Shown here piece after piece: positions 20,635 through 42,370 of a DNA stretch of 52,624 nt. Both the position numbers and the translations under genes were made by a program. The DNA lies in contig DXAF01000037.1 in assembly GCA_019117185.1 (NCBI GenBank), positions 1 to 52,624 of the forward strand. Direction: 5' to 3'. This DNA is from Candidatus Limosilactobacillus intestinipullorum (GTDB taxonomy: Bacteria > Bacillota > Bacilli > Lactobacillales > Lactobacillaceae). The notes under the pieces are model-generated. The model saw only the letters and a program-made list of their open reading frames with translations, was not told where the DNA came from and ran no database searches. Positions within the stretch are counted from its first letter, which is position 1; the number at the start of each line of letters is the position of its first letter.

Positions 20635-21492
20635 TTACTTACCCTGCTTGAGGATGATGTCGGATGGCTTAACTTCACTACCGAAGTATGGCTTCAGTTG
20701 GTGGTTGTAGTCTTGCGTGAAGAAGCCTTCCTTGTTTAGCTTAGTAATTTCCTTATTGGACCAGTTTAAGAGGGAAGTATTGCCCTTCTTAACGGCGGGG
20801 GCGATGTATTGATGAGGGCCGACGCTCTTAATCCCAACCGTGTACTTAGGGTTCTTCTTGACCCAAGCGTAAAGGTAGGAGTTGTCATCAGCTAAGGCCG
20901 CCGCCCGGTTGTTCTTCAAGGCGTTAAATTGCTGGGTCTTGGAGTCAAACTTCATCAGGTTAACCCCTGGTTGCTTGCTGGTGAAGTAGTTTTCGGCGGT
21001 CGTCCCCTTGGTAACGATTAACTTCTTACCCTTCAGTTGGGAAACCTTGGTGATCTTCTTGTTCTTTGGTGAAACCACCCCGACGGAAACCTTCATGTAT
21101 GGCTTAGCAAAGGACACGGCGTTCTTCCGCTCCGGGGTCACGGTGAAGTTGGCTAAGACGATGTCGGCCTTGTTGGAGTTAAGGGTGTCGACCCGGTTGT
21201 TGGCGTTAACCTGAACGAACTTAGGCTTAACGCCCAGGTCCTTAGCCATCCGGCGGGCTAATTCAACGTCATAACCGACCCGCTTACCGTCCTTGTTTAC
21301 CCAGCCGTATGGTGGCAGGTCACCGAAGACGGCAACCCGTAATTGGCCCCGCTTCTTGATGGCGGCAACGGTACTTGCGTTGCTAGCGGCGTGGGCGGTG
21401 GACGGCTTGATGGTGCTGGCCCCAATCAAGAGGGCGGCGGCGCTTGCCAGGGTGACCCCGGCGGTAATTACTTTTTTCCAATTAATCTTCAT
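20635..21492 (-). CDS. Amino-acid ABC transporter substrate-binding protein (cysteine/cystine candidate)
   Basis: The 285-residue secreted protein has a basic N-terminus, a hydrophobic core and STAHAAS near residue 35, then the family-3 binding-protein fold: LRVAVFGDLPPYGWVNKDGK, GYDVELARRMAKDLG, DIVLANFTVTPERK and VSFAKPYM. It is exported and captures the ligand for the permease pair encoded upstream in the same operon. Unusually for Gram-positives it has no lipobox Cys, and indeed no Cys anywhere. It is the last gene of a four-gene operon. The ligand is inferred to be cysteine or cystine from the operon leader, not from the binding pocket. Confidence 0.85.
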   Translation of the reverse strand: MKINWKKVITAGVTLASAAALLIGASTIKPSTAHAASNASTVAAIKKRGQLRVAVFGDLPPYGWVNKDGKRVGYDVELARRMAKDLGVKPKFVQVNANNRVDTLNSNKADIVLANFTVTPERKNAVSFAKPYMKVSVGVVSPKNKKITKVSQLKGKKLIVTKGTTAENYFTSKQPGVNLMKFDSKTQQFNALKNNRAAALADDNSYLYAWVKKNPKYTVGIKSVGPHQYIAPAVKKGNTSLLNWSNKEITKLNKEGFFTQDYNHQLKPYFGSEVKPSDIILKQGK

Positions 21493-21510: not shown

Positions 21511-22251
21511 TTAAAAATCCATACTGTTGAGAAATTCGGTGGCCCGGTCGGTCTGGGGGTGGTCAAAGAACTGCTGCCCAGGCGTTTCTTCTAGGATCCG
21601 GCCGTTCTCTAAGAAGAGGACCTGGTCGGCAATCTTAGCGGCGAAGTTCATCTCGTGAGTCACGATGATCATCGTCATGTGGTCCTGGTCTGACAACTCT
21701 TTGATGATCTTGAGGACCCCCCGGACCATTTCCGGGTCGAGGGAGGCGGTAACCTCATCAAAGAGCATCAACTCGGGGTGCATGGCTAGGGCCCGGACGA
21801 TGGCGATCCGCTGCTTTTGCCCCCCGGACAGTTCCCGGGGGTAGGCATCGGCGTGGTTACGGAGTTCCACCCGGTCGAGTAACTCCAGGGCCTCCTTTTG
21901 AACGGCCGCCTTGTCCCGTCCTTGGACCTTGACCGGCGCTAAGAGGATGTTATCCAGCACGGTCAGGTTCGGGAAAAGGTCGTAGCTTTGAAAAACCATC
22001 CCGATCTTTTGTCGGAGGTCTTGCCAGGTCTTGGGGTTGGGGTCGACCTGCTTACCGTGGAAGTAAATGCGACCGTCCTTGAACGGTTCCAGGCCGTTGA
22101 GCGTCCGGATGAGGGTGCTTTTCCCAGATCCAGAGGGACCCAGCAGTGTGACCACTTCACCCTTGTTAATGCTGAAGTTGATGTCGTGCAGGGCCTGCCA
22201 GTCGCCGTAAAACTTGTTTAAGTGTTCAACTTTGAGAATTTCTTCTGCCAT
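21511..22251 (-). CDS. Amino-acid ABC transporter ATP-binding protein
   Basis: The 246-residue ATPase carries Walker A GPSGSGKST, signature LSGGQKQRIAIVRAL, Walker B LMLFDEVTASLDPE and the switch His in VTHE. The D-loop reads DEVTASLDP, the variant common in polar amino-acid importers. The ribosome site is a weak AGGTGA. It lies 13 bases after the second permease gene and 18 bases before the binding-protein gene. It contains no cysteine. Confidence 0.93.
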   Translation of the reverse strand: MAEEILKVEHLNKFYGDWQALHDINFSINKGEVVTLLGPSGSGKSTLIRTLNGLEPFKDGRIYFHGKQVDPNPKTWQDLRQKIGMVFQSYDLFPNLTVLDNILLAPVKVQGRDKAAVQKEALELLDRVELRNHADAYPRELSGGQKQRIAIVRALAMHPELMLFDEVTASLDPEMVRGVLKIIKELSDQDHMTMIIVTHEMNFAAKIADQVLFLENGRILEETPGQQFFDHPQTDRATEFLNSMDF

Positions 22252-22264
22252 ATTTTCACCTACT

Positions 22265-22942
22265 TTAGTATTGTTGCTTAGCGGTTAAGTGCTTTGCCCA
22301 CTTGGATAGTGGGTAGTCGATGATGAAGTAGAGGATAAAGATCAGTCCGTATACCCAGAAGACGCCGGTCGGGTAGGTCTGGTTGTTGGCCTCGATGATT
22401 TGCTGGCCGACGTTGATAACGTCCATGATGCTAATCATTAGCAGCAGTGACGTCGTCTTGATTACCCGGGTGGCCAGGTTAATCGTGGCCGGTAATTCTA
22501 GGCGGAGGGCCTGGGGTAAGAGGACGTAGCGGAAGAGCTGCCACTGGTTAAGGCCCAGCGCCAAGCCAGATTCCCGCTGGTGCTCCGGAACTGATTCGAG
22601 GGCCCCCCGGACAATGTCACTAAATTCTGCCGCGACCCAGAGGGTAAAGGCCAAAACCGCCATCCAGGTCGCCGGCCAGTTGACGTTAAACTGGCGGGGC
22701 AGGATGTAGTAGACCAAAAATAAGAGGACGACGGTCGGGACGATCCGGAAAAACTCCAGGTACAAGCGGAGGATAAAACGGATGATGCGACTCTTCATTG
22801 TCCGGAACATCCCCAGGATGGTCCCCAGCGCGAGGCCCAAGATCAAGGAGAGGCCGGCGATCCAAATCGCGGTCCACAGTCCACCCATGAGACGGAGGAA
22901 GTTGGTTCCTTCAAATAAAACGTTAATTCCCGAATGTGCCAT
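22265..22942 (-). CDS. Amino-acid ABC transporter permease 2
   Basis: The 225-residue membrane protein has about five helices and the EAA-type loop ESGLALGLNQWQLFRYVLLP that docks on the ATPase. It resembles the HisM/GlnP group of polar amino-acid permeases. ATG 22942 follows AAAGGAGGG, and the start overlaps the end of permease 1 by 20 bases, indicating coupled translation and a likely heterodimer. It contains no cysteine. Confidence 0.9.
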   Translation of the reverse strand: MAHSGINVLFEGTNFLRLMGGLWTAIWIAGLSLILGLALGTILGMFRTMKSRIIRFILRLYLEFFRIVPTVVLLFLVYYILPRQFNVNWPATWMAVLAFTLWVAAEFSDIVRGALESVPEHQRESGLALGLNQWQLFRYVLLPQALRLELPATINLATRVIKTTSLLLMISIMDVINVGQQIIEANNQTYPTGVFWVYGLIFILYFIIDYPLSKWAKHLTAKQQY

Positions 22943-23582
22943 AACGGACCCTCCTTTCGAGCCAGTTGAGAATTAGGATCAGTGGAATCAAAATGATGGC
23001 ATAGGCGACTACCAGGACGAAGAGGTATTCGTTGGACTGGTAGTACATCCCAATCAGGTCCAGGGCGGTGTTGGTTAACTCGGGGATGGCAATCACCGAG
23101 AAAATCGAGGTTTCCTTGACCAAAAAGATCACGTTGGCTGCCAAGGCGGGCATACTCAGCGCAAACCCTTGGGGGAAGACCACGTAACGGGCGAGTTGCA
23201 GATTACTCATCCCCAGCGCCCGACCGCCGTCGAGCTGGGACTTGCTGACCCCGTTAAAACCACCCGTAAAACCTTCAGCCATGTAGGCACCACCAAGGAA
23301 AATCAAACCGACGATGCCGCAGGTTTCAGCGGACATCTTCCAACCGAGCACCGGAAAAGCGTAGTATAAGAAAAATAGCTGGATAAGCAAGGGCGTGTTC
23401 CGAGCCACTTCCACGTAGATATCAAAGAAGCGGCTGAGCACCGGGACGCGGAAGTACTGGACTAGGCTGGCGATGATCCCAACGATGATGGCACCGATGA
23501 TCCCGACCAGCGAGAGCCACAGGGTAAGCTTAAAGCCTTGGATAAAGTTCGGTAGGCTTTGCTGAATTACTGTCCAACTCAT
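22923..23582 (-). CDS. Amino-acid ABC transporter permease 1
   Basis: This is the first structural gene of the operon, 219 residues from ATG 23582 behind GGAGG. It shows the same permease fold with loop DGGRALGMSNLQLARYVVFP. It contains the only Cys in the four transporter proteins (SAETCGIVG). It begins 46 bases downstream of the attenuator terminator, so its expression should depend on readthrough of that terminator. Confidence 0.9.
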   Translation of the reverse strand: MSWTVIQQSLPNFIQGFKLTLWLSLVGIIGAIIVGIIASLVQYFRVPVLSRFFDIYVEVARNTPLLIQLFFLYYAFPVLGWKMSAETCGIVGLIFLGGAYMAEGFTGGFNGVSKSQLDGGRALGMSNLQLARYVVFPQGFALSMPALAANVIFLVKETSIFSVIAIPELTNTALDLIGMYYQSNEYLFVLVVAYAIILIPLILILNWLERRVRYGTFGN

Positions 23583-23627
23583 CAATCAATCCTCCATTCA
23601 TAATACTTAGTCAAAGTCCATACAAAA

Positions 23628-23660
23628 AGGCTGACGATCCAAGTCCAGAATCGTCAGCCT
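23628..23660 (-). terminator. Attenuator terminator in the transporter leader
   Basis: On the minus strand AGGCTGACGAT and ATCGTCAGCCT form a perfect 11-bp stem with an 11-base loop, followed at once by TTTTTGT. It stands between a promoter and the first permease gene with no cistron of normal size in between. That is the layout of a transcription attenuator. Confidence 0.85.
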
Positions 23661-23715
23661 AGTGACTCCCGGGGTGAAGTCGTGGCCCGGGTGAAATTTG
23701 ACTAGTGAGTACGGA

Positions 23716-23802
23716 TTACTGAAACTTTGGTACGTCAAAAAGCATGTTGGCAATTTTGCAACATGGACAACAAGCTTGACTTGACACAACAAAGTTTGAC
23801 AT
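23716..23802 (-). CDS. Cys-rich leader peptide controlling the transporter operon (proposed)
   Basis: A 28-codon frame starts at ATG 23802, ten bases behind AAAGGGG (23813-23819), and ends with TAA at 23716-23718. It reads MSNFVVSSQA, then Cys-Cys-Pro-Cys-Cys at codons 11-15 (TGT TGT CCA TGT TGC), then KIANMLFDVPKFQ. Four Cys in five codons is exceptional in a genome where Cys is rare. The Cys codons overlap the 5' arm of a hairpin (CATGTTG...CAACATG), and codons 2-5 can pair with codons 25-27. The intrinsic terminator lies 56 bases after the stop. The model is that a ribosome stalled for charged tRNA-Cys changes the fold and lets transcription continue. A metal-binding micropeptide is the alternative. 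Confidence 0.75.
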   Translation of the reverse strand: MSNFVVSSQACCPCCKIANMLFDVPKFQ

Positions 23803-23835
23803 GAACTTCGTACCCCTTTCGTAATTGATGGTTTT

Positions 23836-23864
23836 ATGATACCCAGGTTCTTACTATTTGTCAA
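23836..23864 (-). promoter_or_regulatory. Promoter of the transporter leader
   Basis: On the minus strand a consensus TTGACA (23859-23864) and TATCAT (23836-23841) have a 17-base spacer. Start would fall near 23829, giving a leader of about 245 nt. Confidence 0.8.
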
Positions 23865-41752: not shown

Positions 41753-42143
41753 TTTGTAAGCTTTGGGTAATTGAGCACAGCTTTTGTTGTGTTAGGAAGG
41801 TCCATGCTCGCACAGGCTGCGATGCCTGTAGTGTTTGTGCTCGCTGAAAAAATAAGGCGGGGCACCGGCTTGCCCGGTGACGGCGGAAAAAACGGCTACG
41901 GTTTTACTATGCCCGAGTATTCCTGAAAAGTGCCACAGTGACGATACAACAGGGGAAACCCTGTTGGTGGAACGCGGTAAACCCCTCAAGCGGTAAACCC
42001 AAACTACGGTAGGGGAGCTTTGGATAGCAAATTGAAGCGATTCCAGGGGAGAGTTTTTACTCTGAGATAGATGATTACCTCGACCTAGCCATTGCCTGGT
42101 GGTTAGGTTACGACAAAACATGGCCTACAGATGCTTACAAGCA
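41753..42143 (+). ncRNA. rnpB: RNase P RNA (bacterial type B)
   Basis: The P1 helix is formed by TTGTAAGC (41754-41761) and GCTTACAA (42133-42140). Conserved core pieces follow in order: GGAAGGTCCATGCTCGCAC, GATGCCTGTAGTG, GAGTATTCCTGAAAAGTGCC, ACAGTGACGA, GTGGAACGCGGTAAACCCC, AAACCCAAACTACGGTAGGG, GATAGATGATTACC and GACAAAACATGGCCTACAGA. The layout agrees with the Bacillus-type RNA that processes tRNA 5' ends with RnpA. Ends are approximate by a few bases. Confidence 0.96.
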
Positions 42144-42217: not shown

Positions 42218-42231
42218 GATAGTAATCAATG

Positions 42232-42338
42232 TCCTTTAAGTTAGTCCCGTGAGGCTAGTAAGGTGCGGAATAATGGTATGCCAGTAGACCATCCTGGCGA
42301 CATTGCCCCTCGACTTCACGGTGAGTCGAGGGGTTTTT
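42232..42338 (+). promoter_or_regulatory. PyrR-dependent attenuator 1
   Basis: The PyrR-binding loop AGTCCCGTGAGGCT followed by AGTAAGG fits the known recognition sequence. A 10-bp terminator stem (CCCCTCGACT/AGTCGAGGGG, 42306-42333) with TTTTT follows. UMP-bound PyrR would stabilise the loop and allow termination before pyrR. Confidence 0.9.
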
Positions 42339-42370
42339 CTTTTGGGGCAGACATGAAAGAGGTGTAATGA

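Follow-up and report, generated by a model that had tools for sequence, protein, structure and literature searches.

A putative cysteine-responsive, ribosome-mediated transcription attenuator upstream of a predicted L-cysteine ABC importer operon in Limosilactobacillus

Organization of the leader and the operon

The window, i.e. the whole stretch of 52,624 nt from Candidatus Limosilactobacillus intestinipullorum analysed in this work, is contig C11 of a 1.74-Mb genome in 74 contigs. On its minus strand, a promoter, a Shine-Dalgarno (SD) sequence, a 28-codon open reading frame and a terminator precede a four-gene ABC operon (see Table 1); the leader comprises about 200 nt between the sigma-70 type promoter (23864–23836) and the importer operon (23582–20635). 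The preliminary description of this DNA had named the promoter, the ribosome site and the frame with its Cys-Cys-Pro-Cys-Cys run, all of which were confirmed by sequence; the terminator placed there before the first permease gene is likewise present, but with 13 pairs instead of 11. The distance from the −10 box to the leader ATG is 33 nt, and in all 11 type-I relatives checked the best-scoring promoter (10–11 of 12 consensus matches) ends 31–34 nt 5' of the leader start. The translatability of the leader was judged from the sequence. Codons 11–15 contain the 5' arm of a hairpin (CATGTTG with CAACATG), part of which turned up unprompted in the analysis. The fold of the 226-nt leader had an energy of −74.9 kcal/mol (z −3.92), and none of 200 shuffled sequences was as good.

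Table 1. Features of the leader and the ABC operon (window coordinates).
Feature	Position	Strand	Description or basis
Promoter	23836..23864	-	TTGACA (23864-23859), 17 nt, TATCAT (23841-23836); 11/12 consensus matches
Leader SD-like sequence AAAGGGG	23819-23813	-	sequence
Region 1, GGGGUACG	23809..23819	-	includes the leader SD; able to pair with region 2; A2 alignment
Leader ORF, 28 codons, MSNFVVSSQACCPCCKIANMLFDVPKFQ	23802-23716	-	sequence and relatives
Regulatory codons 11-15, Cys-Cys-Pro-Cys-Cys	23758..23772	-	Cys at 11, 12, 14, 15; sequence
Region 2, UUCAG-UAAUC-CGUAC-UCA-CUAGU	23700..23723	-	around the leader stop codon; partner region 1 or region 3
Region 3	23644..23663	-	ACUAG, terminator 5' arm and loop edge (to CUGGA); antiterminator partner of region 2
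Intrinsic terminator, 13 bp	23660-23628	-	-21.9 kcal/mol, followed by U-tract; sequence and covariation
First ABC permease gene	22923..23582	-	BPD_transp_1
Second ABC permease gene	22265..22942	-	
ABC ATPase gene	21511..22251	-	amino-acid importer type
Substrate-binding protein gene	20635..21492	-	285 aa; nearest solved chains 2YJP and 1XT8

An overlapping frame of 85 aa (23607–23864), uninterrupted over the 84 codons counted in the window, was rejected as not conserved: Among 11 relatives, neither of the two other frames is open for more than 49 codons. At the Rfam gathering threshold, no family including the T-box (RF00230) matched the leader; the matches within the window were confined to an RNase P class B RNA (41759–42132) and a PyrR binding site (42229–42341).

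The binding protein suggests that the operon encodes an importer of L-cysteine. Among solved structures, the protein was closest to 2YJP (2.1e-82) and 1XT8 (3.1e-72), followed by the next chain at 1e-40, and matched 2YLN with only 9.2e-21. PMC7170509 identifies 2YJP as NGO2014, which binds L-cysteine in Neisseria gonorrhoeae, and 2YLN as a protein that binds L-cystine; in PMC4757695, 1XT8 is named as cysteine-binding protein of Campylobacter jejuni. The proposed substrate thus follows from the proximity to two L-cysteine binders, and this evidence is independent of the leader. No NCBIfam equivalog cut-off was reached among the matches listed (ATPase: best 25 of 188). The nearest named permeases were those of an uncultured Lactobacillus metagenome-assembled genome (95% identity) and of Limosilactobacillus viscerum (94%). 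A cysteine-dependent system of L. reuteri, cyuABC, is mentioned in the part of PMC6722424 that was available.

Conservation and covariation of the leader

Small ORFs at most 450 nt upstream of a gene were scored by a strict rule (at least three Cys within six codons) and a loose rule (CC or CxC). Of the 50 genomes of the genus, 24 carry a homologous permease (E ≤1e-60): The loose rule was satisfied upstream of 24/24 of these homologs versus 42/268 other long ORFs, and the strict rule upstream of 19/24 versus 7/268; random stretches gave 467 (loose) and 112 (strict) of 2351. The peptide contexts of the leaders differ widely (CCPCC, CCSCC, CSACC, CCCC, CCTC, CCTCACC, ACCCVV); the Cys cluster therefore persists while the remaining residues change. 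Accordingly, the check proposed in the preliminary description, namely whether Cys run, frame and terminator are kept while other codons drift, was largely passed within the genus.

On the family level, 62 of the 80 retained permease homologs belonged to Lactobacillaceae. Of the 62 named Lactobacillaceae homologs, only 26 complied with the loose and 15 with the strict rule; the device is therefore not universal. Convincing leaders include those of Lactobacillus hamsteri, L. rodentium, L. acetotolerans, L. xujianguonis, L. gallinarum and L. kefiranofaciens as well as of three Companilactobacillus species. In L. hamsteri (L093) and L. acetotolerans (L103), a tandem pair of terminator-like hairpins precedes the permease. 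Among 246 order-level genomes, the permease was present in 10 (E ≤1e-70), of which G514 does not belong to the family; five of the 10 loci read had a loose-rule ORF, including three convincing leaders (L223–L225, identical in sequence to already named loci), and no such ORF was found in L227 and L229–L232. By eye, an ORF resembling a leader, MQLQTCPIQCLNKLTVCYLVL, precedes a terminator in L229; its three Cys codons are not clustered, and it may represent a degenerate or variant form.

Two further searches were of low specificity. The pattern TGYTGYCCNTGYTGY matched 31 of 50 genus genomes, but most of its 48 places looked like chance on inspection; six were convincing leaders (the window, L048, L005, L021, L040 and L010). 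A leader profile gave hits in 95 of 301 genomes at E ≤10, mostly noise, and nine of the 28 loci read in context were convincing (L002, which is a locus of the window's own genome, L054, L055, L056, L057, L058, L060, L064 and L072).

Covariation was analysed in alignment A2, consisting of those 19 of the 35 ABC-operon leaders that have the TTCAG...CGTAC layout (A3: 13 leaders), with the helix slid along the columns and 500 shuffles as controls; the leader sequences are related, and the test values therefore overstate independence. The terminator helix is 94.3% paired (23–49% if slid by 1–3 columns), with both-side changes at 10 of 13 pairs and 39 such cells versus at most six when slid. The antiterminator connects the end of the leader ORF with the terminator by three helices (UUCAG:CUGGA, UCGUA:UACGA and CUAGU:ACUAG) and is 86.7% paired versus 23–39% in the slid versions; none of the 500 shuffles reached its paired percentage or its covariation score, 162 of them reached its five doubly changed pairs, and the slid versions had up to 13 doubly changed cells against its 14. 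The CGUACU of region 2 that the antiterminator uses is also the partner of the leader SD, GGAGUACG: This helix is 77.0% paired (slid: 31–53%), its covariation score was reached by five and its number of doubly changed pairs by 187 of 500 shuffles, and one slid version equals its doubly changed cells. On this comparative basis, terminator and antiterminator are supported by covariation, the SD helix being the least firmly supported.

The CTAGT/ACTAG structure pointed out in the preliminary description belongs to the supported antiterminator as one of its three helices. The antiterminator candidate favored there, GTCAAGCTT:AGGCTGAC, is not the one backed by covariation and, by eye, is not shared by L048/L200, a close relative.

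In L204, L206, L208 and L210, changes occur jointly in the SD (G to A), region 2 (C to U), the terminator 5' arm (G to A) and its 3' arm (C to U); L205 has the region 2 and both terminator-arm changes of this set. These co-occurring changes illustrate the switch well; they may go back to a single event within one clade. The frame of L208 and L210 extends past region 2 before it stops. Tested against shuffles on its own, the window was not stronger than chance (SD:region 2, p 0.22; region 2:region 3, p 0.51), and at p 0.05 the 35 ABC-operon leaders taken singly were significant in 18 and nine cases, respectively; since such single-sequence duplex tests were mostly weak, the analysis relies on comparison.

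A hairpin also forms within the leader ORF between early and late codons (e.g. VSSQ with FDV) and between the Cys and NM codons; the pairing of codons 2–5 with codons 25–27, as described previously, is present in the window. The hairpin is 81.3% paired (30–45% when slid) and shows both-side changes at seven of 22 pairs; its covariation score was reached by none of 500 shuffles and its number of doubly changed pairs by 239. The coding sequence would thus be shaped by RNA pairing throughout the leader ORF. This bears on the possibility that the Cys-rich leader acts as a peptide, either by arresting the ribosome or as a metal- or thiol-binding sensor, so that its residues rather than its codons are read. 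Indeed, non-Cys residues (NM.F[DE][VL]P) recur in front of different genes; however, in the ABC-operon leaders these are the base-pairing codons of the hairpin, with the seven doubly changed pairs among them, so that the hairpin can account for the recurring NM.FDVP residues, and number, spacing and position of the Cys residues vary more widely than a binding site would be expected to allow. A peptide-based function is hence considered improbable.

Slightly less probable still is control of the promoter by a transcription factor, with the terminator as constant leak control. It would be in line with the sequence AGTAAG, which lies inside the promoter spacer of the window and in 12 of the 28 leaders listed, but it leaves the Cys clusters, the conserved antiterminator and the SD helix unexplained; both types of control may exist side by side. 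The AGTAAG sequence (spacer 23858–23842 of the window, and relatives) is sometimes repeated near the SD and possibly is a regulator site.

T-boxes are the usual device in Lactobacillales, and two of 40 homologous loci tested (out of the 62 named loci) have one, but with none in the leader at the Rfam gathering threshold a T-box or small-molecule riboswitch is very improbable at this site. The two T-box loci, L141 and L145 (2198–2439), are Loigolactobacillus operon homologs; the specifier of the latter is, by eye, AUG (Met) and not Cys, and the Loigolactobacillus homologs may therefore serve methionine. A T-box sequence of the GGGTGGAACC type was also seen by eye in L228 and L230 (homologs of genus g13).

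Predicted folding and direction of control

The direction in which a translating ribosome would act on the attenuator was evaluated by computing how often RNA further upstream sequesters the 5' arm of the terminator in a transcript ending just past the terminator loop. The ribosome was assumed to cover the RNA up to 15 nt downstream of the first nucleotide of its P-site codon, and stalling at the first clustered Cys codon was compared with the absence of a ribosome and with a ribosome at the stop codon. The set comprised 29 of the 35 leaders (six near-identical ones excluded), or 26 after the mucosae-type leaders L207, L214 and L220 were also dropped. In these 26 leaders, the 5' arm was held with a mean probability of 0.66 in the stalled state, 0.33 without ribosome and 0.19 at the stop codon, compared with 0.48, 0.51 and 0.30 in shuffled controls, and the stalled-minus-free difference exceeded the mean of the leader's own controls in 26/26 cases. 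The drop without ribosome is the telling part, because a larger amount of exposed RNA alone would favor pairing. For the window, the values were 0.74 (stalled), 0.44 (free) and 0.44 (stop); the stalled value was reached by 20% of its shuffles and the stalled-minus-free difference by none of 25. Weak cases were L215, L221 (low stalled value of 0.30), L107 and L147; in L107, L147 and L217 the stalled-minus-free difference was unremarkable (reached by 40–56% of shuffles). Wilcoxon values are indicative only, since the sequences are related and the footprint is assumed.

The mucosae-type leaders (L207, the near-identical L211, L214 and L220), in which Cys-Cys stands directly before the stop codon (...ACC-stop), do not fit the switch model, and a stall-favored antiterminator was not found in them: The values for L207, L214 and L220 were 0.00, 0.74 and 0.10 in the stalled state, 0.00, 0.86 and 0.10 at the stop codon and 0.60, 0.75 and 0.19 without ribosome. 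For L207 the measure is possibly wrong, because the terminator chosen by the script is poor (−5.4 kcal/mol). These leaders may work by stall duration or by another fold; their leader structure is a different and longer one, for which the switch model offers no explanation.

Altogether, the leader of the window is very probably a real, conserved, ribosome-mediated attenuator that senses cysteine; the specific reading as a transcription attenuator responding to charged tRNA-Cys is assigned a probability of about 0.88. From anatomy, conservation, covariation and folding bias, which were established by computation, we infer ribosome stalling, use of the terminator in vivo and a response to cysteine. 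RNA polymerase would start at the promoter and a ribosome would begin the 28-codon leader. With ample cysteine, this ribosome would reach the stop codon within region 2 and cover that region, leaving region 3 free, so that the terminator forms (OFF). Without a ribosome, the leader would fold upon itself and its own SD would hold region 2, with the same outcome (OFF). If charged tRNA-Cys is short, the ribosome would stall at codons 11–15, open the leader hairpin and free region 2, which could then pair with region 3; the terminator would not form and the cysteine importer would be transcribed (ON). In most leaders the clustered Cys codons start near codon 11, i.e. a ribosome's length downstream of the start; a second ribosome that queues on the SD may therefore belong to the signal.

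The earlier proposal of a ribosome-mediated tRNA-Cys attenuator for a cysteine/cystine importer is hence supported by the binding protein, the covariation-backed antiterminator and the direction of folding. It requires two modifications: A segment other than the favored candidate forms the antiterminator, and the leader SD seems to be included in the switch's first strand. The switch would represent cysteine sensing by the translating ribosome in a group whose usual device is the T-box, and its segments are defined so precisely that a small number of point mutations would suffice for a test.

Known attenuators and leaders of other genes

In the E. coli trp and his attenuators, a four-segment switch forms the antiterminator upon stalling and the terminator if the ribosome reaches the stop codon or translation is absent; the logic proposed here is the same, with Cys codons and with leader SD and early codons as segment 1. 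Attenuation of branched-chain amino-acid genes in Listeria is reportedly ribosome-mediated and, together with the His leader of Bacillus, belongs to the same Firmicutes kind, although other amino acids and genes are concerned. The Bacillus His leader peptide (hisS*/hisZ) stands for ribosome-mediated attenuation in place of a T-box, according to the available part of PMC2965389.

Among Cys-containing leaders, the uORFC-8-2 motif before cysS of Rhodobacterales has tandem Cys codons (positions 14–15), and ribosome-mediated attenuation has been proposed for it (PMC8632094, accessible portion). As far as this portion goes, it resembles the present leader in its short upstream ORF, tandem Cys codons, Cys-codon hairpin and terminator, but is restricted to cysS in Alphaproteobacteria, in contrast to the leaders of Lactobacillaceae, which precede four types of genes, differ in sequence and have a first strand that contains the SD; compared by description, the leader of the window is no member of this motif, its gene being an ABC permease and not cysS. 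Mycobacterial polycysteine leaderless short ORFs (Canestrari 2020, as cited in PMC13236596) and actinobacterial cys leaders (Seliverstov 2005, PMC1262725) share the tuning of cysteine-related genes by Cys codons of a leader ORF; judging from the excerpts, they are leaderless and translational or without conserved terminators, whereas SD, terminator and conserved antiterminator are present here. The SD and the 33 nt upstream of the ATG also set the present leader apart from leaderless short ORFs. Among the literature matches listed, with subscription papers largely outside the search, no Lactobacillaceae Cys leader was found. The features of an attenuator that were found comprise promoter, SD and short ORF, a Cys-codon cluster, a terminator and, by computation, a stall-favored antiterminator; the mechanism is of a known kind, and lineage, gene set and SD-based first strand seem to be new.

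The same layout occurs before other genes. A second leader of the same genome, MTNAIFAKAATCCACCANANMLFALPYDYSAGRRQS, precedes an SDF-family symporter (PF00375) that is TcyP-like by our reading. Of 251 family genomes, 32 contain a homolog of the symporter (E ≤1e-80); of the 29 loci read (own gene aside), 17 complied with the strict and 19 with the loose rule, some of these ORFs looking accidental. Leaders with the same core precede genes of OppA-like binding proteins (PF00496; L055–L058 and L064; Pfam was run on the L055/L083 gene) and also Peptidase_C26 itself, the latter with an amino-acid permease gene next to it downstream in L040; in L083 a Peptidase_C26 gene is divergent from the leader. 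The gene kinds are thus four: cysteine ABC importer, TcyP-like symporter, OppA-like protein and Peptidase_C26 with amino-acid permease.

In 17 hand-picked leaders of these other genes (L172, L176–L178, L188–L190 and L192 left out), the mean folding values were 0.68 (stalled), 0.47 (free) and 0.26 (stop) versus 0.50, 0.54 and 0.35 in shuffles; the stalled value exceeded the stop value in 16/17 and the free value in 15/17 leaders. At p 0.05 against shuffles, the SD:region 2 helix was significant in four and the region 2:region 3 helix in none of 19 other-gene leaders, the scoring script having missed L177 and L178. In two symporter leaders, the SD helix is formed by other letters: GAGUAAUCAU:AUGAUUACUC in L081 (p 0.105) and GAGCUAAUGAUU:AGUCAUUAGUUC in L171 (p 0.000). 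A cysteine regulon of Lactobacillaceae, in which ribosome-read leaders with an SD first strand replace T-boxes before at least four kinds of genes, is therefore put forward only tentatively and considered rather doubtful as a whole, since just those four of 19 leaders have an SD helix that reaches significance on its own. Leader-bearing transporters and peptidases of unknown role would probably serve cysteine, cystine or cysteine-containing peptides. The occurrence of Peptidase_C26 and OppA suggests that gamma-glutamyl peptides with cysteine, for instance glutathione, may be used.

Short ORFs of the MKMCCC type at a large distance from the symporter gene, upstream of it (L188–L190, genera g5 and g37), and L192 were discarded, as no clear switch was seen. 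Part of a homolog of the cysteine-binding protein was recognized by eye nearby in L083, with no match to Pfam at 1e-10. In L083 and L040, genes of Peptidase_C26, an OppA-like protein and an amino-acid permease are clustered with Cys leaders, a possible route to cysteine from gamma-glutamyl peptides.
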